Virus record (IMG/VR): IMGVR_UViG_3300034685_000399
Coordinates: 1 to 35,754 of that record
DNA length: 35,754 bases
From: a virus
Reading direction: 5' to 3' (one strand)
The position numbers were made by a program, and so were the translations under genes. Under the pieces are notes generated by a model. It searched no databases. It was not told the DNA's origin and was given only the letters and a program-made list of their open reading frames with translations. Of the stretch, positions 2,414-35,754 are shown piece by piece; position 1 is the first letter of the stretch; each line of letters begins with the position of its first letter.

Positions 2414-4078
2414 TTAATAATAATCATAAGCAAAATCTATAAGGTCAATCTCAAATGTATATTGTATTTTCATAGTATTCGCATCCGTTTTTTCAACTGG
2501 CTGTGCAAGCTTTGTATGAGCACCGCAAGGTTTTGATAGTGATAGATGATAGATGCCAAAATATACATAATCACTGTAAGAATATATATACATTGAAATT
2601 GACTTGTCAGTTCCAATAATCGGATATGCCACTGAATCAGAACCTTCAAAGGTAAAATATTCTCTGTAAGCTTCCACAAGATTGCCTTCAGGAGTAATTA
2701 CTTGACAAAAGCCTGTCCCCCCTTGCGTTCCAGAATAATATAAATATATTCTATTTTTTGTTCTATAATTTAAATTACGTAAATAACACCTTCTTTCGAT
2801 ATTTCCACTATTCATTCCCTTTGAAGCAAACCATGTAGAACTTCCTATTTTAGGTTTCAAATTCAATTCACTTGTTAAATTACCGTTTATATCTAACCTT
2901 AAAAGCCTATTAGTATAAACTGTTTCATTATATTGGGTATCTGTTCTTGAATTATACCCATATATTTCTATATATCCCTCTCCACTCATTAAAGGATTTA
3001 TCGTATAAGCAGTATAATTAAAATTAGAATTATATGCATCTTTGAAATTTGTTGTTAAATTTATAGGACCAACAGTTGACAATAATACCCCTACATTACT
3101 CCATTTGTAAATTTTTAAATAATAGTTGGGAGAGCTATAGTATATATAAACCCCTACAAAATAATCTATTTCTCCATTTTCTTTATATACAGGAACAACA
3201 TCATGTAGCTCGTTTGAATTAAATGCACCACCTGATGAATTTAATAATTTTACTGCATTTGTAAAATCAACATAATAATCTAAATTTAAATCAATTGGAA
3301 CATAAAGCTGATGACCTTTTAGGCTCTCTGGAAATTGAATATAGTTAGAATCAGTTGCACTAGTATTAGTTCCATCAAGTAGAGCATACCCTTTATTATA
3401 ATCGTTAAACCTTAATGCTTTTCTAAAATATCCGGAAGAAGCTCCTCTGTAAAAAATATTAATTATTGACCAGTATTTCTCTTTGTATAAGTTTTGTTTA
3501 GCATAAACAGTTCCATCTCCATTATTTCTTCCAAATATGGGTGGTCCTATATAAAATTTTTCTCTTTCCGAAGGTTCAGCTCCCCAATATATAGATTCAA
3601 ATCTTCCATTTGCAGCATGTGTTGGAAAGTCAAATACAAATGTAGTCCTTATTTTCCCATTAACTATTTCCATTTTACTTTCCAACTTATTTATCGTTCC
3701 TCTTAAAGTATCCGTTCCTGAATATTCAGTATTTCTATAAGCATAGCCTATTATATTTCCCGTTACTTTTTCTGTGTTTGCTGATTCAGGTTTTGTGGAG
3801 TCAGTAAGATATATACATTCAAAATTATCGTTAAATTGATCCTGGCTCCTCGTATTTATCCCCATTATTCCACCAGCAAAATGTCTTAAAAACATGTCCT
3901 TAAAAAACAAATCAGGAATAATGTTTTCTGTATATGCCTCCTTTACTTTCTTATTTGTTTTTGCATCAAACACTTCAACTAAAACTTTACCTTTTATGCC
4001 TCTATCATTCTTAAACTTTGTTTCTTTAAAAACTGTGTTATTTAAAAAATCTTTGTTGTATGAAACAATTTCTCTCAA
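2414..4078 (-). CDS. Phage tail-tip / receptor-binding candidate, 554 aa
   Basis: Start is TTG 4078 with GAAGGTGATAA before it. The N-terminal part (about 1-170) has features seen in phage tail-fibre and baseplate proteins: an opening KGKVLVEVFDAKTNKKVKEA segment and, near 150, FDFPTHAANGRFESIYWG, a region that in related proteins is an attachment or appendage domain. The remainder is rich in Tyr, Asn and Ser with beta-propeller-like spacing, consistent with a host-surface-binding domain. It is the last gene of the tail module, after the Dit- and Tal-like genes, the usual place for receptor-binding proteins. No catalytic motif was recognised. Role inferred from position and composition. Confidence 0.6.
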   Translation of the reverse strand: MREIVSYNKDFLNNTVFKETKFKNDRGIKGKVLVEVFDAKTNKKVKEAYTENIIPDLFFKDMFLRHFAGGIMGINTRSQDQFNDNFECIYLTDSTKPESANTEKVTGNIIGYAYRNTEYSGTDTLRGTINKLESKMEIVNGKIRTTFVFDFPTHAANGRFESIYWGAEPSEREKFYIGPPIFGRNNGDGTVYAKQNLYKEKYWSIINIFYRGASSGYFRKALRFNDYNKGYALLDGTNTSATDSNYIQFPESLKGHQLYVPIDLNLDYYVDFTNAVKLLNSSGGAFNSNELHDVVPVYKENGEIDYFVGVYIYYSSPNYYLKIYKWSNVGVLLSTVGPINLTTNFKDAYNSNFNYTAYTINPLMSGEGYIEIYGYNSRTDTQYNETVYTNRLLRLDINGNLTSELNLKPKIGSSTWFASKGMNSGNIERRCYLRNLNYRTKNRIYLYYSGTQGGTGFCQVITPEGNLVEAYREYFTFEGSDSVAYPIIGTDKSISMYIYSYSDYVYFGIYHLSLSKPCGAHTKLAQPVEKTDANTMKIQYTFEIDLIDFAYDYY

Positions 4079-21142: not shown

Positions 21143-22378
21143 TTAATCCAGTACCCTAATAGGTAATATTAACTCTAAATTTTCTCCATCTTGTGTAACC
21201 ACAATAGGACTTACCTTACTGGTCATTCTAAATTCAACTTTATCACTATAGGTTTTAACTCCTTCTATCAGATATTTGGGGTTAACTGCTATAGTGAATT
21301 CGGTATCCCTCATATGCTCGGTAATACAAGTCACCTCAGCTTTTATTTCAGCCACTGGCACATACTTGTACACTTTCTGTGGCTTAATCAACTTCTCCTT
21401 AGGTGGTTTAAGCTTGAATAGCTTTTTAGCCTTCTCAGCTTTTGCTTTTTTAGCCGCCCATTCATTGTATTTTTGCTTATATTTTTCATAGGCTGTTTCT
21501 TGAAGGAACTTAGTTTTCTTCTCAGAAGCTTCTTTATCATATACTTCTTTGCACTGGCTTGTTAATAGAGTTAATTTATCCTCCGTAAGATTAAGCTTTA
21601 AATAATTTGTTTTAATACCACTTAAGAAGTCTAGTTCTTTTTTAAGGTTATCTAGATTAATGCTAGATATATAATTATGCTCATCTGGAATAATAGATTT
21701 ATAGTTTATAAATTCACCAGGTAAAGTTTTGCCTATAATTTCTATGTTACCTATCTCAAACTTTATATTTTCTAATTTTTCATCACCATAAACTATAACA
21801 TCATCATCAGATTTATTGTTAAGTAAGCTATCTAACAGTTCTACAGTATTTTTATTCAGGACAAACTTTGCATTAGATTCGTATTTACCTTTTCTGACAC
21901 TCATTCTTACACCATCCAAGGCACAAGTTTCATTTCCATTGAAGTATATGCCTTTAAGTATTGGTCTTACGTCATCTTGTGCCATAGCATATTTAACTTC
22001 TAACATTCTATGAAGTTCTTTTTCTGCAGTAGTAAATAGCAAATCTCCTCTGAATGTTTCCTCTGTAAAGTTCTTTTGCACATCCTGAAGCTTTATAATC
22101 TTATTACCCGCTTTGATACATTCATCAGTTAGTGTTAAATAATCATCTTTAAGCTTTTTAATCATATCGACTATCTCTGAAGGTAGTACAATTTGTCCAT
22201 TTTCTTCTGAAATCCCTTCTAAGCTAATGGTTAAAGTAGTGTCCATATCTGATTTACTTAAAATTGTTATATCCCCTATAGTTTTAATAAAAATATCATC
22301 AAACACTAATTTACCTTTTATCTTAGATAATGCTTTTAAAGCATCTTTAAGTTTTTGTACACTTAATTTTACTCTCAT
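21143..22378 (-). CDS. DNA polymerase III beta-like sliding clamp with a Lys-rich insert
   Basis: The 411-aa protein follows DnaN layout: three similar domains, with RPILKGIYFNGNETCALDG in domain 2, FTIAVNPKYLIEGVKTY in domain 3 and the LPIRV terminus. A section of about 65 residues (roughly 277-342, rich in Lys, Ala and Glu) interrupts domain 3 between two beta strands. Phage clamps probably tether the adjacent PolA to DNA. It is directly downstream of SNF2, with GGAGG upstream of ATG. Function inferred from fold and neighbours. Confidence 0.82.
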   Translation of the reverse strand: MRVKLSVQKLKDALKALSKIKGKLVFDDIFIKTIGDITILSKSDMDTTLTISLEGISEENGQIVLPSEIVDMIKKLKDDYLTLTDECIKAGNKIIKLQDVQKNFTEETFRGDLLFTTAEKELHRMLEVKYAMAQDDVRPILKGIYFNGNETCALDGVRMSVRKGKYESNAKFVLNKNTVELLDSLLNNKSDDDVIVYGDEKLENIKFEIGNIEIIGKTLPGEFINYKSIIPDEHNYISSINLDNLKKELDFLSGIKTNYLKLNLTEDKLTLLTSQCKEVYDKEASEKKTKFLQETAYEKYKQKYNEWAAKKAKAEKAKKLFKLKPPKEKLIKPQKVYKYVPVAEIKAEVTCITEHMRDTEFTIAVNPKYLIEGVKTYSDKVEFRMTSKVSPIVVTQDGENLELILPIRVLD

Positions 22379-22385: not shown

Positions 22386-23769
22386 TTAATCCTCCAAACA
22401 TATATAATTTTTAATCCTTGCTTTTACAGCTTCTAGCAACATATTTTGATTAATCTCTTTATTACTCAAAGCTCTCATGACATCTTCATCTACAGTGCCA
22501 GATGCGACAATGTGATGGATAATTACGGTTTCTTTCTGCCCCTGCCTATGTAATCTTGCATTAGCCTGCTGGTAAAGCTCCAAGCTCCAGGTAAGTCCAA
22601 ACCAAACTATAATATGACCTCCTGCTTGAAGATTAAGTCCATGTCCTGCTGAAGCTGGATGTACGAGTAATACTGGAATATTACCTTTATTCCAATCTGA
22701 AATATCTTTTGAATCCTCTAAACCTTTTGCTATAATCTTATTTTTAGTTAGAAAGTCCATTATTCTGCTGTAGTCATGCTTATAGGAATAGAATACTAAA
22801 ACTGGTTTACCGTTAGCTGCCTCAATGACATCAAGTAAAGCATTTAACTTCTCATCATGTATTATTTCAATTTGTCCATTTTCATCATAGACAGCTCCAT
22901 TAGTCATTTGTAAAAGCTTATTTGTTAGTACTGCAGCACTATTAGCCACCACATTAGAATCTTTCAGTTTAAGTATTAAATCTCTTTCAAGTATCTTGTA
23001 TTTTTTCTCTGCTTCCACTGGAAGTCTAACTCTTATAACATTATCTATTCTCTCTGGAAGCTCTAAGTAGTCCTTAGCTTTCATGCTAATACAAATATCT
23101 GATATCTTTTCATGGATGATGCTATCAGCTCCGTCTTTTAAAATCCAATCATAAACTACATATCCATTCTTTCTACCTGGTTTAAAGTAAGCTTCCCTAT
23201 AACTTGAAACAGTTTTTCCTAAACGCTTTCCACCATCTAACAAATAAATCTGCGGATATAAATCTATTAAACTATTAGGTGCTGGTGTTCCAGTAAGTCC
23301 TACTATTCTTTTAAAATATGGTCTTACTTTCTTTAATGCTCTAAATCTAATTGCTTTAGAAGATTTAAAAGAACTTAACTCATCTATAACCACCATATTG
23401 AAGGGCCAGTTGCTAAAACATTCCTTAACAAGCCATTCAACATTTTCTCTATTAATTACATAAATATCTGCTTCAGCACTTAAAGCTTTTAATCTATCCC
23501 TTTTACTGCCTAAAATCTTAGATACTCTTAAGTGATTAAGATGGTCCCATTTTTCTACTTCAGTAGTCCATGTATCTTCTGCTACTCTAAGCGGTGCTAT
23601 GACTAAAACCCTATTTACTTCTCCAAGGAATAACAAAATGTCTATTGCAGTTAGGGTTATTACGGTTTTCCCTAGTTCATAGCCCCATATCTAAAAATAA
23701 TCCTGCTGCTGGATTATTTAAGATATGGGTTATGGCATATTGTTGGTACTCATGTGGTTTAAACTTCAC
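22386..23769 (-). pseudogene. SNF2-family helicase disrupted by a 7-bp insertion in Walker A
   Basis: From GTG 23769 the frame gives MKFKPHEYQQYAITHILNNP and reaches LFLDMGL, then a TGA. Beyond the 7-bp insertion 23673-23679 (minus strand TGAACTA) it continues as GKTVITLTAIDILLFLGEVN, so the intact gene would be 458 aa with Walker A DMGLGKT. The rest is complete: DELSSFKS (motif II), GLTGTPAPNS (III), HPASAGHGLNLQAG (V) and ANARLHRQGQ (VI). SNF2 helicases pair with VRR-NUC in many phages of Bacillota, possibly in recombination or replication fork processing. As given, the ATPase site is destroyed. Confidence 0.85.
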
Positions 23770-24046
23770 TGCCTATCACCTCACTTATCAGTTTCATTAT
23801 TCCTTCAATAGAATCTATAACTCTAACTTCAAAACCTAACTCTTCTATTTGCTTAACTCTATATTCTTGAATTGCTCTTAACTTTTCACCTGGTGCTTTA
23901 AGCTCTATAAAAATAATCCTCCCATGTGGTAGGAGAACAATCCTATCTGGCACTCCTGACACCCCTGGACTGACAAACTTTAGTGCTTTACCGCCAATCA
24001 ACTCAATCTCTTTTTTAAGTCTTTTTTCAATTCTGCTTTCTTTCAT
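23759..24046 (-). CDS. VRR-NUC nuclease
   Basis: This 95-aa protein is a minimal VRR-NUC domain: basic N-terminal helix (ESRIEKRLKKEIE), SGVPDRIVLLPHG, then FIELKAPGEKL with the catalytic Asp, Glu and Lys (PD-(D/E)xK family), and a C-terminal helix. Such domains act on branched DNA in phage replication or recombination. Its stop overlaps the GTG of the SNF2 gene by 11 bases, so they are coupled. The iteron region lies upstream. Confidence 0.92.
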   Translation of the reverse strand: MKESRIEKRLKKEIELIGGKALKFVSPGVSGVPDRIVLLPHGRIIFIELKAPGEKLRAIQEYRVKQIEELGFEVRVIDSIEGIMKLISEVIGSEV

Positions 24047-24066: not shown

Positions 24067-24311
24067 TGGATACATGGCAACAAAATTTCTGTATATAAAT
24101 AAATCACTATATTAGGCGTATATGTATATATGCGTATACGCCTATTTATATAAATAATACTTATATAATATTTTTTGTATCCATTGTATCCACTTAGTAT
24201 TAAACCCTTATAAATACTGGTTTTAACGTGGATACAACACTGGATACAGTGATAAAATTTTTGTATCCGTTGTATCCACTTCCAATTATTTTAAATTTAA
24301 CTTTGTATCCA
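24067..24311. repeat. Iteron array A (TGGATACA type), candidate replication origin
   Basis: Nine copies of an 8-base iteron, in both orientations, occur as four close pairs plus one: 24067, 24075 (TGGCAACA, variant), 24176, 24185, 24229, 24241, 24262 (TGTATCCG, one mismatch), 24271 and 24304. They flank an AT-rich core (24102-24178). Iterons flanking an AT-rich stretch, 3' of the gene for a VapE-like helicase, is the plan of SaPI-type origins. The core holds a perfect 10-bp inverted repeat (24113-24122 and 24135-24144). Origin function is inferred. Confidence 0.8.
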
Positions 24312-26738
24312 CTAACTTTTCCTTATAAAAGCTCTTTGTCTTCCATAGACTTTCCCAAATCTTAAAGTGCCTTTAACCTTTTCCCATCCATCAAGTTCAC
24401 TTAAGATATCATTAATTTCTCTTGATATTATAGGTGAGAGCTGTTTAGGATCTCCATTAAAAAGCTCTACCCATATTTCCATTACACAGGTCTTAGTTCT
24501 TTGTATAGTGCCTTCAGGTACTTCTCCAAAATCTGAACCATGTATATAGTTCCTTCTTTCTGCTATTCCTAATTCATACCAATTTTCAGGTAACAACCTA
24601 TTTAAATACTCTTCTATAATCCCTGCTTTAGCGCTTTCTTCACTGTGTGCCTCTTGCTGCTTTTGAGCTTCTTTTTCTTCTTCACTACTTAGATATAATT
24701 GTTCTCCTGCTTTGAATAGCTCCACAGCTTCAGCCCATATTTGATCAATTTCATAATCTGTTAAATCTTTAAATACACTCTTACTAGGCTTAACTACTCC
24801 AACATCTATTGGCCAAAACCTTCTATTACCTGTTTTATCTCTTAAAAACTCTCTATCATTAGTTGTACCTATAAAAACACACTGTCTTGGGAATCGGCTT
24901 GTTCTCTTCCCGTATGCTACTCTGTAAATATCTTCTGCTTTAGATAGGAAATGCTTTGTAGCTTCAATGTCCGCCTTCTTAGTAGCCATCATTTCTCCCA
25001 TTTCCAGTATCCAAACCCCTTGAAGCTGTTCATATGCTTCTTTACCACTTACAGTAGTTAAACTATCACTGTACCACTCTCTACCTAATTTTTTTATTAT
25101 AGTACTCTTACCTAATCCTTGAGGACCTGAAAGAACAGGCATATTATCAAACTTAATCCCTGGAACAAAAACTCTTGCTACTGCAGCAACTAATATTTTT
25201 CTTGTTACAGTCCTTACATATGAATTATTCTCAGCTCCTAAATAATCTATAAATAAAGTATTTACTCTTTCTATACCATCCCATAAAAGACTATTTAGAT
25301 AATTCCTTACTGGGTGAAATGAATGTTTTTCAAACGATAGAGCTAATGCATCTGAGCATTTTGCAGTTGAACTTATTCCGTAGTATTTTTCTATAAAATC
25401 CCTAAGCCCACTATCATCTGTATCGTTCCAATCTGATTTATTATCTTTACTTCTCCATGGAAGTTTACCAAGCACTACAGCTCTATTTGAAAATTCATTA
25501 AAGGCTATCTTTCCTTTAAGCAATGGTTCATTTTCTATTATTAATAAGAAGTTGCTTATTGTACTTTTAAGTTTACTTTGTTCTGTATAAGTCAATTCCT
25601 TCAACCATTCTGTGCCAACTTCTTCATCTGTAACCATATCAAAATCCTCTTGAGCCTTTTCCATACGTTCTTTACCTAATGTGTGCATTACCCTTTTATC
25701 AGAACTTGCAAACTCAGTCATTCTAGTAAATGAAGGCAATCTATTAGCCGGAGTATCTTCTTTAGCATCTTCATCTAAATGACCAAACTTGTGAATTCTA
25801 ACCAAGTCAAAAGCATTACATAAAATTCCACTAGCAGGATCTGTCCCATGATGACTATAGCTAAATTTATCTTCATAAACCACAACTCCACCAGTAGTAC
25901 TTCCTGGTGCATATGTGTATCTTGTACTATCGGCACCTGGAATGTAAACATCACTTAAAAACTCTGCTATAGCTTCACTTATACTGTAGGTCCTACAAAA
26001 TGCACCTATAATACCCTTCTTCTCTAAAGGATCTTCCTGCTTCTTTATAGCACTTGTGATTTTTGCTCTAGCCCTGCTGCTCTCTGGCCAGTAACTTACA
26101 TCCTGCCATCCAAATGTATATCTTGCTAGTACATCATCTGGATTAAGCCATGGTAAATCCTGTACCTTAAATACATATTCCCCATCACTTGAAGTGCTTG
26201 GCCAATACATAAGTCTTGAAGGTTCATAAGTTGTATCGTCAAACTGGTCTATTCCTAAATCATCTGCAATCATTCTAGCAATAGCTTGATATTCATCTGG
26301 AAGCACTGGTCTTGATAAAGGTATTATAATTCTTAATCTTTGATTATCCGGAGCATGTGAGTGAGTTGAATACATAACACATGCAAAATCATATAATAGC
26401 TCTATACTGGACCATATATCGCCATTTACATAATCTAGGTCTAAGGTTAATAATGTTCTATTTGCTACATTCTCAGCTTTTCTACGACCATTCTTTAAGG
26501 TACCTCCTACAAATCCTCCAACATCCTTAATTCTGTCTCTTTCACTCTTAGGCATTTTCTTGAATTCTGCATAAGTTTCAGGAGTTCTTGTAGTAGTACC
26601 TAGCTTATCAACTAAAGCTGAGTACAACATACTTTTATTTTTCCAATGAGTTTCTTTTCTACCTTTTCCGGTAGCTATTGTTATGGTGCCATCATACTTA
26701 ATTTTAATAGCTTGTTTTTTCTCTGCTTTGTATTCCAA
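24312..26738 (-). CDS. PrimPol plus VapE-type SF3 helicase
   Basis: This 808-aa protein starts at TTG 26738 with AAAGGAGGTGG upstream. The N-terminus is a primase-polymerase: LTLDLDYVNGD (Asp100, Asp102), YSTHSHAPDNQRLRI (His126 and conserved Args) and DQFDDTTYEPSRLMYWPS. The C-terminus is a VapE/D5-like helicase: Walker A SGPQGLGKST (537-546), Walker B ILEMGE (577-582), sensor GTTND (624-628) and TGNRRFWP (arginine finger). This is likely the replication initiator and should bind iterons; array A abuts its 3' end. Confidence 0.93.
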   Translation of the reverse strand: MEYKAEKKQAIKIKYDGTITIATGKGRKETHWKNKSMLYSALVDKLGTTTRTPETYAEFKKMPKSERDRIKDVGGFVGGTLKNGRRKAENVANRTLLTLDLDYVNGDIWSSIELLYDFACVMYSTHSHAPDNQRLRIIIPLSRPVLPDEYQAIARMIADDLGIDQFDDTTYEPSRLMYWPSTSSDGEYVFKVQDLPWLNPDDVLARYTFGWQDVSYWPESSRARAKITSAIKKQEDPLEKKGIIGAFCRTYSISEAIAEFLSDVYIPGADSTRYTYAPGSTTGGVVVYEDKFSYSHHGTDPASGILCNAFDLVRIHKFGHLDEDAKEDTPANRLPSFTRMTEFASSDKRVMHTLGKERMEKAQEDFDMVTDEEVGTEWLKELTYTEQSKLKSTISNFLLIIENEPLLKGKIAFNEFSNRAVVLGKLPWRSKDNKSDWNDTDDSGLRDFIEKYYGISSTAKCSDALALSFEKHSFHPVRNYLNSLLWDGIERVNTLFIDYLGAENNSYVRTVTRKILVAAVARVFVPGIKFDNMPVLSGPQGLGKSTIIKKLGREWYSDSLTTVSGKEAYEQLQGVWILEMGEMMATKKADIEATKHFLSKAEDIYRVAYGKRTSRFPRQCVFIGTTNDREFLRDKTGNRRFWPIDVGVVKPSKSVFKDLTDYEIDQIWAEAVELFKAGEQLYLSSEEEKEAQKQQEAHSEESAKAGIIEEYLNRLLPENWYELGIAERRNYIHGSDFGEVPEGTIQRTKTCVMEIWVELFNGDPKQLSPIISREINDILSELDGWEKVKGTLRFGKVYGRQRAFIRKS

Positions 26739-26766
26739 ATTACCACCTCCTTTAGACTATTTTGTA

Positions 26767-28722
26767 TTAATCCTTCATATAATAATTACATTCATATCCG
26801 TCAGCTTTTAATGGTAATCCGGGAGCCCAATCTATTGGCTTTGCAAAAATCTTATTAACTTCTTCTACACTCCCAAAACCTTTAGGTACATCCATTACTA
26901 ATTCATCATGTACATGCATTACTATTGGATATCCTGTTTTTTCTACTCTAAACATAGCTTCAGCTAAGCAGTCTCTTGAAGTAGCTTGCACTATGTTTTC
27001 TACAAGTTTTGGTCCATAAGTATCTATCCTAGTCCACTTCTTAGACGTTTGTTCCATACCTTCGTAGGTTATCTTATCTCCACTAAATGTCTTATGTGGT
27101 TCTATCTTGGGTCTTACATAAGATAATCTTCTACCACTTGGAAGCCGTATAAATAAAACTCCTGGATTATATATAAACTTAATGCCATGCTGTATACATA
27201 CAGTAGTTTTTTCTTTAATAGCTTTCTTTGCTGCTTTATCAACATCCCACCAAAATTTTACTATATTAGGATTAGCAGCTCTCCAGCTACTAACTAGCTC
27301 TGGAAGTTCCTCAACTGGAATACTTTTACTCTTATCCATAGAAATGATAGCCCCCACACTCCCACCATAACCAAGTGCTAGCTCTGCTATCTTTCCCTTT
27401 TGTCTAAGGTCTGAACCTTTCTTAATATTTTCTATAGGCACATGAAACATTTGACTTGCTGATGCTTCGTATATTTTTCCGTGGGTTTTGAAAACATCTA
27501 GTCTCCACTGCTCTCCAGCAAGCCAAGCAATAACTCTTGCTTCAATAGCACTAAAATCAGCTACTATAAATCTGTTGCCTTCTGCAGGTATAAAAGCTGT
27601 TCTTATAAGCTGTGATAATGTATCTGGAATACTATCATAAAGAAATTCAGCTTCATCAAATCTCCCTTCTCTTATTAAGTTTCTTGCATTATCTAAGTCA
27701 GACAAATGGTTTTGGGGTAAATTTTGAACTTGAACTAATCTTCCCGCCCATCTGCCAGTTCTATTAGCTCCATAAAACTGTAATAGTCCTCTTATCCTCC
27801 CATCTTTACATCTGCTATTTAGCATAGCTTCATATTTTTTAATCGAGGTCTTTGCCATAAGCTGCCTTAGTTCTAAAATTCTTATAACATTTTTATCCTT
27901 AGCAATTTCTAAAATTTCTGGAATACTATCTTTAGTAAGGCTCTTAACCTCTTGTCCAAGTTTTTCACTTATCCAATTCTTTAGTTGTGTAGTGCTGTTA
28001 GGATTACTTAATCCTGTTATTTCTCTAGCCTCATTCATTAATTTTTCAGTATAGGTATTATCACATTCAATAGCCTTTTCTATAAGAACTAAGTCTGTAC
28101 CAATACCTCTATCATTTATTCGTTGATCTAACTCCCACAACCTCTGTTCTCTCTCTAATGTTTCAAACTTACTTAATTTCTTTCTTATTTCTCTTTCTAC
28201 CAACACGTCTTGTTTGCAGTACTCTTTGAAAGTTTCCCACTTTTCAAGATCATGCTCTGGAAAGTTTCTAGTTCTTCCTCCATTAGCTTTAGTTGGCTTA
28301 CAAGGCTTACTAAAATATTGAATTAAAGCCTTACCCTCTTTCATCTTCTGCTTATCATCTTCAAAGTTTAGTACCTTACCTACCATCTCAAGTGAGCCAG
28401 GCAAACCCAAAGTCAAAGCTTTAATCATAGTACACTGCCACTGCTCTGGTGGCATTTCTATATTTAAATATTTGCTTAATGCTGTACGTTCAAAATTAGC
28501 ATTAAAGGCTGTTTTAATCACATTAGGACTGAATAGTGCATCCTCAACTTCCTCTGGCACGAGTTCACCATTCTCTAAATCTATTATCTTAACTTCTTCA
28601 TCATCAAAGGCATATGCAAATAGCATTATTGTGAAGTCTGGGGCTTCACAATATCTGTAAACCCCAGCTTCTTGAATATCCACACTTGAGTAAGTTTCTA
28701 TGTCTATACTTAAAGTTCTCAT
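26767..28722 (-). CDS. DNA polymerase, family A, with 3'-5' exonuclease
   Basis: The 651-aa replicative polymerase has exonuclease motifs DIETYS (Asp7, Glu9), FNANFERT and YCKQDV near residue 170, and polymerase motifs A (VADFSAIEARV, Asp389), B (RQKGKIAELALGYGG, about 440-454) and C (MHVHDELVMD, Asp606). All catalytic residues are present. It sits four bases after the ssDNA-binding gene, which lacks an obvious separate ribosome site for pol, suggesting translational coupling. Confidence 0.95.
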   Translation of the reverse strand: MRTLSIDIETYSSVDIQEAGVYRYCEAPDFTIMLFAYAFDDEEVKIIDLENGELVPEEVEDALFSPNVIKTAFNANFERTALSKYLNIEMPPEQWQCTMIKALTLGLPGSLEMVGKVLNFEDDKQKMKEGKALIQYFSKPCKPTKANGGRTRNFPEHDLEKWETFKEYCKQDVLVEREIRKKLSKFETLEREQRLWELDQRINDRGIGTDLVLIEKAIECDNTYTEKLMNEAREITGLSNPNSTTQLKNWISEKLGQEVKSLTKDSIPEILEIAKDKNVIRILELRQLMAKTSIKKYEAMLNSRCKDGRIRGLLQFYGANRTGRWAGRLVQVQNLPQNHLSDLDNARNLIREGRFDEAEFLYDSIPDTLSQLIRTAFIPAEGNRFIVADFSAIEARVIAWLAGEQWRLDVFKTHGKIYEASASQMFHVPIENIKKGSDLRQKGKIAELALGYGGSVGAIISMDKSKSIPVEELPELVSSWRAANPNIVKFWWDVDKAAKKAIKEKTTVCIQHGIKFIYNPGVLFIRLPSGRRLSYVRPKIEPHKTFSGDKITYEGMEQTSKKWTRIDTYGPKLVENIVQATSRDCLAEAMFRVEKTGYPIVMHVHDELVMDVPKGFGSVEEVNKIFAKPIDWAPGLPLKADGYECNYYMKD

Positions 28723-28726
28723 AAGA

Positions 28727-29287
28727 TTAACCTAAAAAATCATCTTCTTCACTTTCTACAGCTTCAAAATCATCTTCTGCTCTAGTGAATCCGCCAAGAG
28801 GTTCTCCGTCAGCTAACTTCTGAACATTTCCAAGTCCACAAGCTACACCTTTATTACCACTTGCACTAAATGGATAGAAGTTAAGAGTTAATCTCGCATA
28901 GCAGCCGCTGTAAACTTCTGTTGCATCAAGGATAGGTTGAACGTATTTATCTACTATACCCGGCTTATTCTTACTTGAAGCATTTAAGAAATAACTATTT
29001 TTATAGGCTTCATCATCCGGTCTTTCTGTATCCCCATCTCTTAAAGGCGTTTTTAAGCTAGGTGGAACTTTTCCTCCCCACTTAGCTTTACCTTGTTCTT
29101 TAGCTTCGTTGACCGCTTCCTTAATAGCTTTTAAAGTTTCTGTATCACTCTTAGGAATTATTACACTAACTGAATATTTTGGTTCTTGTCCATCAATTGC
29201 ATGCGGCTCAAATAGATGAGCATAGCTTAGTCTAACTTTTCCTGTAGTTACTTTTGTCCCTGTTCTTTTTGCTGTTACATTTGCCAT
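28727..29287 (-). CDS. DUF2815 ssDNA-binding protein
   Basis: The 186-aa protein has the DUF2815 / gp2.5-like OB fold: TGKVRLSYAHLFEPHAIDG, VSVIIPKSD, ATEVYSGCYARLTLNFYPF. It ends in an acidic tail (EAVESEEDDFLG) like other single-strand DNA-binding proteins that recruit partners. It is coupled with the polymerase and DUF2800 genes in the replication block. Confidence 0.92.
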   Translation of the reverse strand: MANVTAKRTGTKVTTGKVRLSYAHLFEPHAIDGQEPKYSVSVIIPKSDTETLKAIKEAVNEAKEQGKAKWGGKVPPSLKTPLRDGDTERPDDEAYKNSYFLNASSKNKPGIVDKYVQPILDATEVYSGCYARLTLNFYPFSASGNKGVACGLGNVQKLADGEPLGGFTRAEDDFEAVESEEDDFLG

Positions 29288-29307
29288 AATTATTATTCTC
29301 CTTTTTT

Positions 29308-30462
29308 TTAATCTATTTTTTCAAAATCTGCTTTTGCAGAATTAAAAACTTGTCTTTTATCACTTTCATGTACTAATACTGGTTTTCCTGGTGGTTTTAT
29401 AATATAATCGCCAAGTAGTCTCTGAACTTCCTTTTTACCTATTGCTGTCTCCATGTTAGAAATGCCAGTAAGCTTTTTAGTATAAATAATGTCTTCTAGG
29501 AAGCCTTGTCCAAGTAATATCTCAGCAACTTTATTTTCATCAGCCCATTTCCTATTACTTCTACCTTCAACTACTTTAAAGCCTGGATATACTTCACCTT
29601 TTAAAGCTTGTTCTAAAGCATATTCTTGTACATCTTTAGCCCAGCTGATTAACTCATCTGCCTTGCTTAATATGTCCGCTATTTCTAGATTATCTAGTGT
29701 ATTAGGCTCTTTAAATTCATACTTTGCTAACTCTAAATTCTTTTCAGCTCTAGCTCTGCAAACTGCTTTAGCTTTACAAAATGTACAATGGTCTCCTGGA
29801 CAAAATTCTCCTTCACCTTTAAAGGCTAACTCTGCTGTAGGTTTTAAAACTTCTTCTGCCCACTTTAGTAAATCTTCTACCAATATTTCATCTGTTGATA
29901 TGGAATCTAATCTAGGCTGTACTATAGTCATCTTCACTTTGTTAATATCATACAGAAAACCAAACTCTGCTATAGCTCCGAGTGCATAAAGCCTCATTTG
30001 CTTATTACCTACTGCACTAACCGGAACACCTTTGCCATACTTAAGGTCAACTATTTCCATTATGTCATCTGCGATAATAACAAAGTCTCCTGTCCCAAAT
30101 CCTTCCGGAACCCACTCACTAAAGTCTAATCTTTGTTCAATTCTAAATTGGGCATCTGGAGTTTTTGTTTTAGCCTCTGATACTTTTTCCATGCAAGTTT
30201 CTATGTATATATCTACATAGTCAGGCATGTCTTTTGTAAATAGTTCATTCTCTTCTATTTTCTTAAATTCAGCATTGTATTTTCTCTTAGTGATTTCACC
30301 TAAATTAAACCTTAATCCTAATTCTCCAAGTGCATGAGCTAGTGTACCTTCTGCGGCATATTCACTAGATTTGTTTTCAAATTTTTCTTCAAGTCTTGCG
30401 GAAGGAGGGCAGTTCATCCATTTACTAGCTGAACTTGCACTTAATAATGCGTGCTGTGCCAT
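29308..30462 (-). CDS. DUF2800, Cas4/RecB-type nuclease-like protein
   Basis: The 384-aa protein starts with HALLSASSASKWMNCPPSAR and contains VPEGFGTGDFVII / DLKYGKG (PD-(D/E)xK-like active-site region) and a C-terminal cysteine cluster, CPGDHCTFCKAKAVC, likely an iron-sulphur site as in Cas4/AddB-type nucleases. It probably processes DNA ends during phage recombination or replication. Its ATG overlaps the stop of the preceding small gene (TAATG). Confidence 0.9.
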   Translation of the reverse strand: MAQHALLSASSASKWMNCPPSARLEEKFENKSSEYAAEGTLAHALGELGLRFNLGEITKRKYNAEFKKIEENELFTKDMPDYVDIYIETCMEKVSEAKTKTPDAQFRIEQRLDFSEWVPEGFGTGDFVIIADDIMEIVDLKYGKGVPVSAVGNKQMRLYALGAIAEFGFLYDINKVKMTIVQPRLDSISTDEILVEDLLKWAEEVLKPTAELAFKGEGEFCPGDHCTFCKAKAVCRARAEKNLELAKYEFKEPNTLDNLEIADILSKADELISWAKDVQEYALEQALKGEVYPGFKVVEGRSNRKWADENKVAEILLGQGFLEDIIYTKKLTGISNMETAIGKKEVQRLLGDYIIKPPGKPVLVHESDKRQVFNSAKADFEKID

Positions 30463-30632
30463 TATTTTGCCTCCTTATTACTTTCAATAAATCTTTTAAC
30501 TAGTGGTATTTCCTTTTTGCTAACCCACTTAAGCCAGGTCCCGCAATCACCACAAACTAATGCTGTTTGTGCTCCTCCATTATTAAGAAACACATCTGTA
30601 CTACCACACTTATGGCAAGCATATTGTTTCAT
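30462..30632 (-). CDS. Zinc-ribbon protein, 56 aa
   Basis: The product begins MKQYACHKCGSTDVFLNNGG and then ALVCGDCGTWLKWV. CxxC...CxxC is a complete zinc ribbon. The stop TAA overlaps the next gene's ATG. Such small zinc ribbons precede DUF2800 in many clostridial phages. Its role is unknown; a nucleic-acid-binding function is likely. Confidence 0.75.
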   Translation of the reverse strand: MKQYACHKCGSTDVFLNNGGAQTALVCGDCGTWLKWVSKKEIPLVKRFIESNKEAK

Positions 30633-31064
30633 TTATAATAACACCTCCGCTTCTTTATATACTGCAACATAATCCTCTTCTTTTAAGTCTGGAACTCTTT
30701 CAGCACCATATTTAGCTACAAGCTCCTTAACTTCTTTTTGCTTACCAGCTTTCATTATTGCTCCGAGTCTTTCCCTTATCATTTCCTTAGTTACTTTAGG
30801 CTCTTCATCTTTAGGATCTTCTTTGACTTCTTCATTAGTCTTTACATCATTTTCAATTGGTGGCTCTTCTACTCTAGTTTCTATCTTTTTATCTTCCTTA
30901 GCAGTATCTTCAACTTTTGTTTCTATAGGTTGTTTATTTTCTTTTGGTATCTCCACTGCTGGAGCTTGTACACTTTCATACTGTGGAACAAAACCTGTTT
31001 TTCCGAATGCACTTGCAAATGTTAAAATTTCTTCTACTGAATTAAATTCCACTGTAATTTTCAT
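30633..31064 (-). CDS. Acidic linker protein, 143 aa
   Basis: A beta-type N-terminus (MKITVEFNSVEEILTFASAF) leads into a highly charged Glu/Lys-rich middle (about 45-92) and a helical C-terminus (IRERLGAIMKAGKQKEVKEL, ending in KEAEVLL). A good GGGGG(A) ribosome site lies upstream. Proteins like this are recurrent in clostridial phages without known function. Probably a DNA-metabolism accessory protein by context. Confidence 0.68.
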   Translation of the reverse strand: MKITVEFNSVEEILTFASAFGKTGFVPQYESVQAPAVEIPKENKQPIETKVEDTAKEDKKIETRVEEPPIENDVKTNEEVKEDPKDEEPKVTKEMIRERLGAIMKAGKQKEVKELVAKYGAERVPDLKEEDYVAVYKEAEVLL

Positions 31065-31066
31065 AA

Positions 31067-31213
31067 TTATTTTTCCCCCTTTAAAACTTCAGTTATTATT
31101 CTTATAGAATCGTTTAATGCTCGGTTATAATCAGTTGCAGATATGTCCGGATATTCAATCATTCTTAAATTCATAAGCACTTCTTCTAAGGCTTTTTTAT
31201 ATTTTTCAATCAC
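31067..31213 (-). CDS. Small helical protein, 48 aa
   Basis: From GTG 31213, with AAGGTGAGA upstream, the product is MIEKYKKALEEVLMNLRMIE and then YPDISATDYNRALNDSIRII and a short tail ending KGEK. It is all-helical and acidic. The ATG of the next gene follows within five bases of its stop (TAATTATG). No family known. Confidence 0.6.
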   Translation of the reverse strand: MIEKYKKALEEVLMNLRMIEYPDISATDYNRALNDSIRIITEVLKGEK

Positions 31214-31249
31214 TTGTAAATCTCACCTTCTTTCTGATATACTGAAATT

Positions 31250-31288
31250 GCGAGTTTTTATTTTTGGTTGCTTAGGCAACCTTTTTTA
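31250..31288 (+). ncRNA. Candidate plus-strand small RNA
   Basis: A plus-strand promoter-like pair, TTGTAA (31214-31219) and TATACT (31238-31243) with an 18-bp spacer, precedes a strong plus-strand terminator (31266-31288). An RNA of about 40 nt would result, antisense to the minus-strand early transcript, in the gap before the 42-aa gene. There is no gene on this strand here to explain the terminator. Confidence 0.28.
31266..31288 (+). terminator. Plus-strand terminator among minus-strand genes
   Basis: GGTTGC / GCAACC (31266-31271, 31276-31281) with loop TTAG is followed by TTTTTTATT on the plus strand. On the minus strand it is followed by an A-run and would not terminate. All nearby genes are on the minus strand, so its direction is surprising. 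Confidence 0.65.
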
Positions 31289-31414
31289 TTCATCTACTTC
31301 AAAAGTTATTTTTCTACCTTCATCCATAATTATTGCTATACCGATTTCTTGACATAATAAACAATCATTTAAAGTTATAGTTTCAATATCTCTATCAAAA
31401 GTAAGCTTTGTCAT
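31286..31414 (-). CDS. Small hypothetical protein, 42 aa
   Basis: The frame from ATG 31414 gives MTKLTFDRDIETITLNDCLL, a CQEIGIAIIMDEGRK stretch and ends in a short acidic tail. AAGGAAAG is upstream. A beta-type pattern with two cysteines (CLLC). No family recognised. Confidence 0.55.
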   Translation of the reverse strand: MTKLTFDRDIETITLNDCLLCQEIGIAIIMDEGRKITFEVDE

Positions 31415-31480
31415 AGTCTTTTCTTTCCTTTCACAATTTTTGACTTGCCCCTACTCTTATAAGGTATAAGCCCTCTTTTT

Positions 31481-31582
31481 CTAAAAATAATGCCATTTAA
31501 AGTTTCTAAGTCCAGCCCAAGTTGGTTCAATATTCAAGTTATTACAAAGCCTTATGTAAGCTTGTATTATTTTTAAGCTCAT
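31481..31582 (-). CDS. Small hypothetical protein, 33 aa
   Basis: ATG 31582 has AAAGGAGGG at a good distance. The product begins MSLKIIQAYIRLCNNLNIEP and ends RNFKWHYF. It immediately follows a decayed short frame (31583-31648) whose TAG abuts this ATG. Function unknown. Confidence 0.55.
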   Translation of the reverse strand: MSLKIIQAYIRLCNNLNIEPTWAGLRNFKWHYF

Positions 31583-31648
31583 CTAAATCCCTCCTTTATA
31601 ACTCATAGCCTTTACTATTTTCTCGTCAAGCTCCTGGCTTTTTGCTAC
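31583..31648 (-). pseudogene. Short decayed frame upstream of the 33-aa gene
   Basis: Twenty-one open codons after a TAA encode VAKSQELDEKIVKAMSYKGG plus one residue. A good AGGAGG stands 15-20 bases before, followed by ATA in the place of ATG and a frame change. It could be a small gene that has lost its start and frame. Low confidence. Confidence 0.25.
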
Positions 31649-31671
31649 TTAACTATCGCTATATAAACCTC

Positions 31672-31953
31672 CTAATTTGTTAGTTTAATTAACTCTGTTT
31701 TAATAAGATTGAGAAATTCATCCTTCTTAACTAATTCCTCTTTTAATCTAGTTATTTCCTCTTCTAGTTCTATTTCTCTTGTTGTCTTTCCAAAGCAAAT
31801 AACATTGGTATATTCGTCTACATGTTGTTGAGTAAATCTTAAGTCAGTTCCAACCTTGAAAAATTGCAACTTATTTCTAGCTACTTCTCTTTTTATAGTC
31901 TCTGGATGTACATCAAACATTTCTGCTAGGTCTTTAACTTTGTAATACTTCAA
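31672..31953 (-). CDS. Helix-turn-helix DNA-binding protein (excisionase-like)
   Basis: From TTG 31953, with AGGAGG eight bases upstream, the product is 93 aa: KYYKVKDLAEMFDVHPETIK is a MerR/excisionase-type HTH, followed by VGTDLRFTQQHVDEY (DNA contact wing) and a C-terminal coiled coil. The ATG at 31986 lies inside the upstream gene, before the ribosome site. It may be the recombination directionality factor (xis) or a regulator. It overlaps no neighbour in the chosen form. Confidence 0.7.
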   Translation of the reverse strand: MKYYKVKDLAEMFDVHPETIKREVARNKLQFFKVGTDLRFTQQHVDEYTNVICFGKTTREIELEEEITRLKEELVKKDEFLNLIKTELIKLTN

Positions 31954-31973
31954 AGTTAGTTCCTCCTTTCTAA

Positions 31974-32774
31974 TTAATTTAAGCATGCAATTTCTTCTGC
32001 TACTTCACTTTCAATGTCTTTACCCAATATCTCCTGTATAACTGGTATAACTGATTTATAGTACCTGAAACATGGGACTTCTTTGTTACTGTACCTTGAC
32101 TTGTCATGAAACCATTTCCCGTATTCTTCAGTTTTTAAATTATGTTCTTTTGCAATCCTGCCAACCTTGTTTGCACTTATACCTAAAATCTTGCCAACCT
32201 GTTCTGCTGTTAATGTTTCCTCCTGTAGTTCTGGTAGTGGTAATAACGGTTTGCCTGCCACAATTTCAGTCGCATAAGTGTAAAGTATTTGCCTGTATGT
32301 AGGGCTTATCTCCTCTTTCTCGGCAAGTTTTAAAAGTATATTAGCTTTTCTTACAAGTGAATTATTGTATCGTGCTTCTGAAAGTTTCTTCTTATCCTCA
32401 GTTGGGATTATCTTAGCTTGTCCCTTCCTTAAAGCCTTTAATATTTTTCTTACCCATGCTCTAAACTCTTTAGCTTTTTCTGTACCTGATAGAAATGTTA
32501 CTTCATAAATCCCATCTTCTGTGAAAACTCTCATTTCCCTTGATACTTCTCGGTTTCCTTCAAGTACCCTCAGTTTGAGATAGGTTGAAAATTCATTTTG
32601 TTTAAGATATTCATTTCTATCAACAACATTGTTGATACCAGTTACTGGATTTGAGTAACCCAATGCCTCTCCTAATTGTTTTGCAGTCATGTAAATATTG
32701 CCTTGTTCGTCTTTCCAAAAATCACATTGGACTTGTCCGAAATTTTCAGATTTAACAATTGCTAAATTATTCAT
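31974..32774 (-). CDS. Phage antirepressor, Bro-N type
   Basis: The 266-aa protein has an N-terminal Bro-N domain (about 10-110: MTAKQLGEALGYSNPVTGIN, RVFTEDGIYEVTFLSGTEKA, FRAWVRKILKALRKG) and a C-terminal DNA-binding part with LTAEQVGKILGISANKVGRI, a Rha/KilA-like HTH. Bro-N/ANT proteins antagonise or replace the CI-type repressor during induction. It begins immediately after the Cro-like gene, its ATG one base away, and so is made early in lytic growth. Confidence 0.88.
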   Translation of the reverse strand: MNNLAIVKSENFGQVQCDFWKDEQGNIYMTAKQLGEALGYSNPVTGINNVVDRNEYLKQNEFSTYLKLRVLEGNREVSREMRVFTEDGIYEVTFLSGTEKAKEFRAWVRKILKALRKGQAKIIPTEDKKKLSEARYNNSLVRKANILLKLAEKEEISPTYRQILYTYATEIVAGKPLLPLPELQEETLTAEQVGKILGISANKVGRIAKEHNLKTEEYGKWFHDKSRYSNKEVPCFRYYKSVIPVIQEILGKDIESEVAEEIACLN

Positions 32775-32987
32775 TTACTTGTCCTCCTTTTGTTCATCAG
32801 AAAAAAATACTGCTAATACACTCTCCCCTAGCGCTTCTGCTATACTTTCCATTGTTTCTTTACTTGGATTGTGCCTAAGACCTCGTTCTAGATTACTAAT
32901 ATAGCTTGGGGCAAGTCCTGTTAGTTCTGACATTTTATAGAGACTGTATCCCAATTTAACCCTCATTTCTTTTATATTATTCAACAA
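32775..32987 (-). CDS. Cro-like XRE regulator, 70 aa
   Basis: The short protein is a single XRE HTH: LGYSLYKMSELTGLAPSYIS followed by NLERGLRHNPSKETM. A basic RVKLG stretch precedes. It is the first gene of the leftward early operon, opposite the repressor, the typical position of cro. AGGAGATG precedes ATG 32987. It probably binds one of the two operator families in the switch. Confidence 0.88.
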   Translation of the reverse strand: MLNNIKEMRVKLGYSLYKMSELTGLAPSYISNLERGLRHNPSKETMESIAEALGESVLAVFFSDEQKEDK

Positions 32988-33015
32988 ATTTCATCTCCTT
33001 CCATATCGTTGTGAT

Positions 33016-33044
33016 ATTATAATATCATGCTCTGACAGAGTTCA
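33016..33044 (-). promoter_or_regulatory. Leftward early promoter (cro promoter)
   Basis: TATAAT on the minus strand (33016-33021) lies 29 bases before the cro start. The -35 at 33039-33044 (TGAACT) is weak. The first repressor-type operator (33030-33040) covers the spacer and -35, so it can be shut by bound repressor. The palindrome 33013-33026 lies across the -10. Confidence 0.5.
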
Positions 33045-33102
33045 TCAAATAAATCATTCTCCGTTAGAGTTTGTTATTTTAATTTATCGCTTTCTGTCAG
33101 AG
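33030..33102. promoter_or_regulatory. Three CTCTG-CAGAG operators (O1-O3)
   Basis: CTCTGACAGAG (33030-33040) is a perfect palindrome; CTCCGTTAGAG (33059-33069) and TTCTGTCAGAG (33092-33102) are variants. Starts are 29 and 33 bases apart, roughly three helical turns. The nearest one covers the cro promoter. Likely operators for the CI-like repressor or for Cro. Confidence 0.75.
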
Positions 33103-33130
33103 TTTATCTTAAAATATCTTTATTTTGCTA

Positions 33131-33159
33131 TTGTCTTTTATTCTCTAAAGGAATATAAT
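33131..33159 (+). promoter_or_regulatory. Repressor promoter
   Basis: TTGTCT (33131-33136) and TATAAT (33154-33159) with a 17-bp spacer are a near-consensus housekeeping promoter. Transcription would start near 33166, 28 bases before the TTG of the repressor. A second operator family lies across it. Confidence 0.75.
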
Positions 33160-33177
33160 ATATTCTAGTAGAGAATA
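33139..33177. promoter_or_regulatory. Two TATTC-GAATA operators over the repressor promoter
   Basis: TATTCTCTAAAGGAATA (33139-33155) and TATTCTAGTAGAGAATA (33161-33177) are 17-bp imperfect palindromes 22 bases apart (two turns), flanking and overlapping the -10. The motif differs from O1-O3, so a second regulator (Cro, antirepressor or the repressor itself) is expected to bind here. Confidence 0.6.
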
Positions 33178-33193
33178 AAAGGAGGTTCAAAAA

Positions 33194-33835
33194 TTGATTG
33201 GGAAGAATATAAGGAGAATTAGAGAATCTAAAAAAATGGGTGTTAATGAAACCGCAAGAAAAATAGGTATGAGTGGTGGATATTTAAGTGCGCTTGAAAG
33301 AGGTGAAAAAAAGAACCCTAGCACGCAGACTTTAATCAAAATCGCAGATGCTCTTGGTGTACCTTTAGATTATTTATTAAGAGAATCAGTAAAAGCAATA
33401 ATTGAAGATAAGTTAGAAGAGTTAAATATGACTTTTGAAGAGCTGTCAGCTAAAACTAATATTCCTATAAAATTCTTTGACAATATAGATAATATAATTC
33501 CTGATGAAGGGGATTATGACCGTTTAAAGTTAATTGCTAATACCCTAGGATTAGAAGAGTCTATATTATTAAAAGCTTTATCTAGGCAAGAGCCGCCTGT
33601 ATATGAAGGCACATCATCAACTCCTGAGGATGATTTTGTGCAAGAAGAATCTACTTCTTATGATGTTGATGAGTTTAGAGACCCCGAATCAGCTATGGCA
33701 TTTTTGATAAAGCAGCCCTCTTTAGCTGCATATGGTGGGTATGATCCTAAGGCCATGTCTGATGATGAGGTAATAGAGTTTGCAAATGAATTATTAAGAC
33801 AACTTAAGTTATTAGGATTTAAATATAAAAAGTAG
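33194..33835 (+). CDS. CI-like repressor with tandem HTH domains
   Basis: The 213-aa protein starts at TTG 33194 with AGGAGG upstream. Residues 1-60 are an XRE HTH (GVNETARKIGMSGGYLSALE). A second, degenerate XRE-like unit follows (about 66-128: MTFEELSAKTNIPIKFFDNI, DRLKLIANTLGLEESILLKA). The C-terminal third is acidic, with no S24 LexA-type autoprotease. With the adjacent ImmA-type protease this fits ImmR/ImmA-type control, in which the protease removes the repressor. Autoregulation is likely from the operators at its promoter. Confidence 0.85.
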   Translation: MIGKNIRRIRESKKMGVNETARKIGMSGGYLSALERGEKKNPSTQTLIKIADALGVPLDYLLRESVKAIIEDKLEELNMTFEELSAKTNIPIKFFDNIDNIIPDEGDYDRLKLIANTLGLEESILLKALSRQEPPVYEGTSSTPEDDFVQEESTSYDVDEFRDPESAMAFLIKQPSLAAYGGYDPKAMSDDEVIEFANELLRQLKLLGFKYKK

Positions 33836-33843
33836 GTGTTATT

Positions 33844-34284
33844 ATGCTTAGGTATAAATGGATTGATGATATTATTTGTGGTCTTATTGATAGATATGAT
33901 ACAAATAATGTTTATGAGATTTGCGAAGGTGAAAATATTAAAATAGTAAAGCTAGATCCTGAGAATATTTTATTAGATAAAAAGGTGGCTTACTATTACA
34001 GAGATATTGAGGATAATGAAGTTATTTTCATTAGGAATAACTTACATCCAAATATAGAACAATTCATACTTAAGCATGAGCTTGGTCATGCATTACTGCA
34101 CCCAGCCATACTTAGCGCCCCTTATACACTATCAAATGTTGGAAGGTTAGAGAGGCAAGCTAATTATTTTGCTTTAAAACTATCAAACTTAAATTTTGAT
34201 AAAGTTGAACTTGAAGGTATGACCTTAGAACAAATCTCAAAATATTTTAAAATTCCACACCAACCTTTGAGGGAATTATTTTAA
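33844..34284 (+). CDS. ImmA/IrrE-type metallopeptidase
   Basis: The 146-aa protein carries HELGH (His78, Glu79, His82) in KHELGHALLHP, the zinc site of the ImmA/IrrE (COG2856) family, and a later RQANYFALKL helix providing the third ligand or support. In ICEBs1 and several phages it cleaves the partner repressor, inducing excision. It is 8 bp after the repressor and co-transcribed. The end abuts iteron array B. Confidence 0.9.
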   Translation: MLRYKWIDDIICGLIDRYDTNNVYEICEGENIKIVKLDPENILLDKKVAYYYRDIEDNEVIFIRNNLHPNIEQFILKHELGHALLHPAILSAPYTLSNVGRLERQANYFALKLSNLNFDKVELEGMTLEQISKYFKIPHQPLRELF

Positions 34285-34286
34285 GG

Positions 34287-34532
34287 TGTCAACAATGTCA
34301 ACAAAATTACTATATATAATATAATCGCTATATTAGGGGTATATGTATATACGTGTATATGCCTAATTATATAAATAATACTTATATAATATTTTTTGTT
34401 GACATTGTTGACGTTATAGCCTTAACTATTGGTATTAGTGGCTTTACACTGTCAACAAACTTGTCAACAAAGGTATTTTTACTGTTGACACTGTTGACAC
34501 TTACAATAATTGTTAATTCAACTTTGTTGACA
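34287..34532. repeat. Iteron array B (TGTCAACA type), second origin-like element
   Basis: Nine copies of TGTCAACA or its complement TGTTGACA are at 34287, 34296, 34397, 34406 (TGTTGACG, one mismatch), 34450, 34462, 34483, 34492 and 34525. They flank an AT-rich core (34323-34399) that matches the core of array A in 71 of 77 bases. Starts 34397, 34450, 34483 and 34525 are spaced 53, 33 and 42, exactly as in array A. The 312-bp space between ImmA and integrase holds this element and no convincing gene. Confidence 0.8.
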
Positions 34533-34596: not shown

Positions 34597-35754
34597 ATGG
34601 CAATAAGGGAAACTGAGAAAGGTTATTATGTTGAGGTATATTTAGGCAAAGACCCTCTGACAAATAAGAAGATTAGAAAAACAAAATTGTTCACGCCTAA
34701 AAACAGAAACTCTCTTAAAGAAGCTAAGATGTGGGAAGCTGAAATATTATCCTCCTACAAAACCGGAGAACTTGATTTAAAGGGTAATATGAAACTTTCC
34801 GACTATCTTGATTATTGGTTTGATACCTATGTTGTTACTAACACAGCATATCAAACACAGAAACGCTATAAAACGCTCTGTAATTGCATAAAAGAGCATA
34901 TAGGACATTTACCTTTGGAGAAGCTTAAAACACCTATTATAGAGCGATTTTATGCGGACTTAAAAAAAGAAACTATAACTCTTAAGAATGGAACTAAAAA
35001 AAGACGATACATGGATGGTACTATTTTAAAAACACACAAGCTGTTAAGGCAGGCTCTTGATAAAGCTGTTGCCTGGGATATGATTGCTAAAAATCCAGCG
35101 GACTATGCTACAGCTCCAGAAGATGATGAAAGAGAGATTAATACTTGGAGTATTGAAGAAGTAGAGTCTTTCTTAGAATTAATAAAGGATTCTAAGTTAT
35201 ACTTACCCGTATTCATAGCCTTTCATACCGGTATGCGTGAAGGCGAAATATGCGCACTACAATGGAGTGACATAAATTTAAAAGAAGGGTTTTTAACTGT
35301 AAATCATAACTTGGTACAACATAGCACAGAATTAGTTTTAGAAGAACCAAAGACATCAGCTAGTAAAGACATTATAATCTTAACTAAACAATTAAAAGAT
35401 AAGCTTGAAGAAGTTAAAAAACATCAAAAAATATTATATTTAGAAAGTGGAAAGACAGTAGAATTTAACTATGTTTGCTCTTGGGATGATGGCAGACCAC
35501 TAAGACCATTATATGTTACAAAGACCTTTACAAAGCACGTAGAGAAATATGGGTTTAAGAAAATTACATTTCATGGTTTAAGACATACTCACGCAACTAT
35601 ACTATTTGCTAACGGTGCTACTAGTCATGAAATATCTAAAAGATTACGCCATAGCAGGGTAGCCACAACAGATGATATTTACATCCACATAACAAAAGAA
35701 ATAAAAAAATCTACTGCTGATATATTTAGCAAAGCAGTAGAATCCGTAAAATAA
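34597..35754 (+). CDS. int: Tyrosine-recombinase integrase
   Basis: The 385-aa enzyme recombines phage and host attachment sites. An N-terminal arm-binding domain (about 1-60, GYYVEVYLGKDPLTNKKIRK) is followed by a SAM-like core-binding domain (about 65-165) and a catalytic domain with Arg214 (HTGMREGE), Lys252, His326-x-x-Arg329 (HGLRH), His352 and Tyr362 (TDDIYIH). All catalytic residues are present. A strong AAAGGAGGTGAG precedes the ATG. The stop is the last codon of the window; attP would normally lie just beyond. Confidence 0.95.
   Translation: MAIRETEKGYYVEVYLGKDPLTNKKIRKTKLFTPKNRNSLKEAKMWEAEILSSYKTGELDLKGNMKLSDYLDYWFDTYVVTNTAYQTQKRYKTLCNCIKEHIGHLPLEKLKTPIIERFYADLKKETITLKNGTKKRRYMDGTILKTHKLLRQALDKAVAWDMIAKNPADYATAPEDDEREINTWSIEEVESFLELIKDSKLYLPVFIAFHTGMREGEICALQWSDINLKEGFLTVNHNLVQHSTELVLEEPKTSASKDIIILTKQLKDKLEEVKKHQKILYLESGKTVEFNYVCSWDDGRPLRPLYVTKTFTKHVEKYGFKKITFHGLRHTHATILFANGATSHEISKRLRHSRVATTDDIYIHITKEIKKSTADIFSKAVESVK

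Follow-up and report, generated by a model that had tools for sequence, protein, structure and literature searches.

Why does a single phage carry two arrays of short iterons that are built on one geometry and that read differently in the middle of the iteron? This question is raised by a 35.7-kb virus record, and the whole stretch of 35,754 nucleotides that was analysed is called the window here. Each array contains nine 8-base iterons, which read TGGATACA in array A and TGTCAACA in array B, and the two types are referred to by their variable bases as GAT and TCA. The window carries genes for terminase, portal, capsid, protease, tape measure and endolysin, so the element is a phage and not a satellite. 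Its endolysin, at 817-1773 on the minus strand, has two LysM-like repeats (direct repeat D2, 821-909 and 986-1074). The early operon encodes DUF2800, a ssDNA-binding protein, a family-A polymerase, VapE, VRR-NUC, a SNF2-like helicase and a sliding-clamp-like protein, the last of these being a phage-encoded DNA polymerase III beta-like clamp at 21143-22378 on the minus strand. The features that concern the two arrays are located as follows.

23759 to 24046, minus strand: VRR-NUC nuclease gene, flanking array A on the side away from vapE
24067 to 24311, minus strand: array A, nine TGGATACA-type iterons (GAT), separating vapE from the VRR-NUC gene
24067+, 24176-, 24185-, 24229+, 24241+, 24271-, 24304-: array A iterons reading TGGATACA
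24262- and 24075+: deviating iterons of array A, CGGATACA and the intermediate TGGCAACA respectively
24084 to 24175, no strand: A+T-rich core of array A, with a nearly invariant TAGGC...GCCTA inverted repeat
24312 to 26738, minus strand: vapE, encoding an 808-aa primase-helicase (phrog_256, VapE-like domain), the proposed initiator
24315 to 24407, minus strand: VapE residues 778-808, helix end and predicted wing beta-hairpin (LRFGKVYGRQRAFIRK), the proposed iteron-specificity segment
33844 to 34284, plus strand: ImmA/IrrE-like metallopeptidase gene, adjoining array B; the protein is 86% identical to the ImmA of record G010
34287 to 34532, minus strand: array B, nine TGTCAACA-type iterons (TCA), between the ImmA gene (stop codon at 34284) and the integrase gene (start at 34597)
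34287+, 34296+, 34397-, 34450+, 34462+, 34483-, 34492-, 34525-: array B iterons reading TGTCAACA
34406-: deviating iteron of array B, CGTCAACA
34305 to 34396, no strand: A+T-rich core of array B, laid out as the core of array A
34597 to 35754, plus strand: tyrosine integrase gene, downstream of array B

Array A consists of two iterons, an A+T-rich core of ~90 bp and then seven iterons, and the iteron that comes first after vapE abuts the vapE stop codon. The exact 8-mer TGGATACA occurs 8 times in the window (7 copies in array A and 1 elsewhere), and TGTCAACA also occurs 8 times, always in array B. Since only about one copy of each 8-mer is expected by chance, and 8 copies were reached in 0 of 100 shuffles of the window, a chance origin of the arrays is excluded. 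In vapE orientation the step lengths are 33, 9, 21, 12, 44, 9, 101 and 8 in array A, and 33, 9, 21, 12, 44, 9, 101 and 9 in array B. The preliminary description, which had reported two arrays of the same geometry with a concerted base switch, was correct in this and in all of its spacings (53/33/42, 9/12/9, 8 vs 9 and 109 vs 110). The arrays have in common a 114-nt stretch of 87% identity, and outside the iterons they are ~70% identical. The core hairpin provided no usable covariation, its TAGGC...GCCTA arms being nearly invariant across the arrays compared. An Rfam search gave no match, and GC skew tracks transcription and marks no origin position. BLAST of array A against phages found no match, and that of array B found one, in a C. 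difficile phage, at the vapE-side array of that phage. A search with the short core pattern returned three contigs only, of which one (L010) is a chance match.

The VapE of the phage itself most likely has its matching origin, of a SaPI/PICI-like kind, in array A. The C-terminal domain of SaPI Rep recognises an origin directly downstream of its gene (PMC7581432), and in PICI origins an A+T-rich region is flanked by iterons in two sets (PMC6092414). Array A agrees with this plan: it follows the initiator gene immediately on the 3' side, an A+T-rich region separates its two iteron sets, and the homology of its initiator to SaPI Rep extends to the C-terminal winged helix. VapE residues 376-804 match SaPI PriRep1 (7PDS) with E=5.9e-93 in HMMER, and the C-terminal 125 aa match the same structure in fold (Foldseek, E=5e-7, probability 1.00). 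PriRep1 is the top match in both searches and the closest solved relative of the VapE winged helix. The AlphaFold model of the last 125 residues (mean pLDDT 85) presents helices and a terminal beta-hairpin in winged-helix order. It is from this strong homology that we infer the roles of array A as origin and of VapE as its initiator.

The meaning of the shared geometry depends on the relatives of this phage. VapE homologues were taken from viral and genome contigs and from Clostridia genomes, and most of them have an array directly 3' of vapE. Related phages present at least 12 iteron types of the form TG-nnn-ACA, uniform within an array and differing between phages, with nnn being TCA, GAT, GAA, GCA, GTA, TCT, TAA, TGA, TAT, GGA, GGT or GTG; more distant relatives have other iteron forms besides TGnnnACA. 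Among named phages, the iteron is TGGATAC in Enterococcus EFP1, TGTCAACA in Listeria LWP01, TGATGCAACA in the S. aureus Sa2-type and AAAGTAACA in S. pseudintermedius DS12. One subgroup (L017, L018, L021, L024, L026, L028, L029, L031 and L058) has its array after the SNF2 helicase gene, ~2 kb from vapE, with the TGA type kept. The pairing of the VapE tail GRLRFGKxYGTQRAF with the iteron GTGAACA is mostly retained in L017, L024, L026, L028, L029 and L031, and the same tail and iteron occur in L244 and L250, where the array adjoins vapE. A mosaic array of TCA and TCT iterons stands beside a TCA-type VapE tail in L041. The step lengths of the C. magnum prophage L014 are identical to those of array B, and those of L023 are nearly those of array A. 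Judged from these sequences, the geometry common to A and B is the plan of the whole phage family and reflects common descent, so the equal spacing, which had been taken as a sign of selection, is no evidence for selection within the window phage.

The type of the iteron tracks the last ~30 residues of VapE and not the rest of the protein. In partial Mantel tests on 28 sequences, which are not independent and whose iteron types were assigned by script and by eye, iteron distance was associated with tail distance given the body (r=0.20, p=0.0008) and not with body distance given the tail (p=0.68). The type signal is confined to VapE residues 780-808. This tabulation of iteron type against the VapE C-terminus had been proposed in the preliminary description, and its view that the base switch reflects initiator specificity gains support from it and from the concerted variation of the type across the family. 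The fewest type changes were 19 on the body tree and 15 on the tail tree of 32 sequences, with 15 or fewer in 0 of 300 shuffles; the count on the tail tree, which depends in part on the trait, serves as a consistency check. Among the types that start with G, residue 800 is Arg in 6/6 GAT sequences and in 0/10 others, a comparison that holds only 3 phylogenetically independent pairs. A per-column code from residue to base was not resolved, the mutual-information peaks being scattered. The window VapE has its body nearest to L014 (TCA) and its tail nearest to L023 (GAT).

The extent of the covarying segment can be read from L034, L036 and L042, each of which stands for one C. difficile group. 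Their DNA is 99.6-99.9% identical upstream. Counted from the vapE stop codon, the identity stays at ~100% as far as about -90 and is back at that level between about +270 and +2100; in the stretch that separates these two regions it is 36-96% in 30-base bins. This block of ~360 bp contains the last 30 vapE codons and the array, of type GTA in L034, TCA in L036 and TCT in L042, and the VapE proteins hardly differ ahead of the last ~30 residues. Taken by itself, the block in these three contigs is a sharp swap, three natural alleles of one origin-specificity cassette. In the structural model, the swapped segment is the helix end and the wing hairpin with its YGxQR turn. The model and the cassette boundary together suggest that the variable iteron bases are set by the wing more than by the recognition helix.

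Array B seems to have a different ancestry. Compared with L014, 71/72 of its iteron bases are equal (99%), against 74% in the other columns (p=3e-7), and array A compared with the GAT array of L023 is 96% identical in the iterons and 72% in the rest. Outside the iterons, B has 76% identity to L014 and A has 76% to L244, more than the two share with each other; with the iterons included, A is closest to the GAT arrays of other phages and B to the TCA arrays. A and B thus seem to come from separate type lineages and not from a recent duplication followed by mutation in step. A fresh duplication of A was considered as the source of B and was ruled out by the low identity outside the iterons, where each array is nearer to those of other phages. 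A standard integrase-upstream repeat, the case that would have spoken against the preliminary description, was ruled out as well: the two closest integrase relatives (71-76%) have no clear array at the integrase-upstream position, and 32/35 ImmA-homologue loci have no clear array at the ImmA side.

Only two further vapE phages with an array at this junction were found, G003 (L015/L204) and G010 (L022/L205), which makes three with the window. In G003, array A is mainly GAT and array B mainly GAA, so the first description, of one element with arrays of two types, is borne out and such a case recurs once more. The core halves of A and B in G003 (L015, L204) are near-identical, and the type differs in the outer half. 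This pattern suggests that gene conversion (exchange) has taken place between A and B within one phage. Both arrays of G010 are GAA although their spacers are only ~70% identical. A fragment without vapE, L223, has a TGTAACA array at 3420-3635, between ImmA and a serine recombinase. In the window, as in G003 and G010, no more than ~4 bases separate the ImmA stop codon from the start of the first B iteron. The integrases beside the other B arrays are ~30% identical to that of the window, or the enzyme is a serine recombinase (L223). Because the adjoining integrases are only distantly related to each other, B goes with ImmA rather than with the integrase. Array B has two iteron sets around an A+T-rich region, on the plan of A and L014, and it lies ~7.5 kb from vapE and not directly 3' of an initiator gene. 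The two arrays likely represent two specificities, and B is presumably not used by the present VapE; dual recognition has to be kept in mind, because some TCA-type VapEs have a very similar wing.

The explanation that we favour, and that we hold to be probable as a whole without great confidence, combines an own origin, a specificity cassette of ~360 bp and a mismatched second array. Array A would be the replication origin of the phage, of the SaPI/PICI kind, with iterons flanking an A+T-rich stretch just behind the initiator gene. The winged helix at the C-terminus of VapE would bind the iterons and load the helicase, and the wing hairpin (last ~30 residues) would mainly read the variable middle bases, so that specificity would lie in the short cassette, the vapE 3' end plus the array, recombining between phages as one block. 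In the simplest reading the second array, at the ImmA side, most likely once suited a TCA-type VapE, much as both arrays of G010 still agree in type. Recombination at the vapE end would then have changed array A and the wing together and left B of the TCA type; B would have kept, or come with, this type because a swap at vapE is out of reach of a site 10 kb away. The outcome would be a phage with one matched and one mismatched array. We infer a swap rather than a capture as the source of the mismatch, and a capture of B with the ImmA module could yield the same result. A VapE body near the TCA-type L014 with a wing near the GAT-type L023 fits a swap and does not prove it. No near-identical relative of the window with a different cassette was found, so a swap in the history of this very phage can only be proposed.

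Other readings are less likely. One initiator may read both, the wing LRFGKVYGRQRAFIRKS tolerating TGGATACA as well as TGTCAACA and the base difference being neutral, which we regard as rather unlikely. The C. difficile TCA-type wing (LRFGKIYGRQRAYVRKS) differs from that of the window VapE by conservative changes, and YGRQR is carried by C. difficile and other TCA-type VapEs, likewise by the TCA-type Listeria LWP01 (YGRQRAY). Additionally, residue 800 is Arg in 2/5 TCA-type VapEs of the tree set, as in all GAT types. Neutral tolerance, however, would not maintain the uniformity of the arrays in nearly all phages, no mixed GAT/TCA array was seen in the arrays surveyed, and the residues before the hairpin differ (EKVKGT vs ISYNGN). 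Array B might instead be matched to a foreign initiator, as an origin fired in trans by a co-infecting TCA-type phage or as a decoy titrating the initiator of a competitor. The intact iterons of B, in a window with no second initiator gene recognised among the annotated genes, the second mismatched B in G003 and the block of lambda replication by ectopic origin copies (PMC4488673) are in keeping with such a role, but an intact B also fits a recent capture or a recent switch of A, and the B of G010 matches its own A, which leaves the proposal improbable. The broader idea that selection maintains, in some temperate phages, a further complete origin matching not their own initiator but that of a rival, whose VapE fires or is titrated there, has a slim chance of being right.

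It is also doubtful that B is an operator through which a bound initiator regulates the integrase promoter and so ties integration or excision to replication. B does occupy most of the gap upstream of the integrase in all cases found, with unrelated integrases, and a promoter-like pair overlaps an iteron at 34298-34325; promoter-like matches, however, occur at chance level (4 found vs 3.0 expected), and B retains the whole layout of an origin with its A+T-rich core, more than an operator would require. A bipartite origin of A and B under one initiator, like ori and crr of satellite P4, would account for two separated arrays and for the GAA type of both in G010, but the types differ in the window and in G003, and most vapE relatives show a single array, so this is very improbable. 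The own origin with its specificity cassette and a mismatched second array stays the preferred reading.

The module resembles that of SaPIs and PICIs in having an initiator-helicase with the origin directly 3', and VapE matches PriRep1 in both sequence and fold; it differs in being placed in a full phage with head and tail genes and in having a second array of another type. PICI satellites are without most phage structural genes of their own, whereas terminase, portal, capsid, protease, tape measure and endolysin are all present in the window. The O protein and ori of lambdoid phages are type-specific in initiator and iterons and are exchanged as modules, but the initiator is unrelated to VapE and the origin lies inside gene O. 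In satellite P4, the alpha protein is a primase-helicase initiator with a C-terminal origin-binding domain and two iteron regions (ori and crr), which carry one iteron type, in contrast to GAT and TCA in the window; the same type in both arrays was found only in G010.

Type-specific initiators and origin modules are already known from SaPIs, lambdoid phages and PLEs. The literature searched, which covered few subscription papers, contained no account of the cassette of VapE phages, of how small it is, of so many types or of a second array that is mismatched. The analysis would place the origin specificity of VapE, a widespread initiator, in a hairpin of ~30 residues that moves together with the origin as a short recombining cassette, and with the near-identical trios found in nature the recognition code can be tested directly. 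Why phages diversify their origin types so fast is a question that the mismatch of array B raises. In the PLE satellites of V. cholerae, the DNA-binding domain of RepA varies together with the origin iterons, the two have been exchanged as modules on more than one occasion, and these swaps are linked to escape from the origin-directed nuclease of ICP1, Odn, so that nuclease attack is a documented pressure on the origin there (PMC8263062). The PLE system differs from that of the VapE phages in its unrelated initiator (RepA_N domain), in its two reported replicon groups against at least 12 types, and in having no second mismatched origin.
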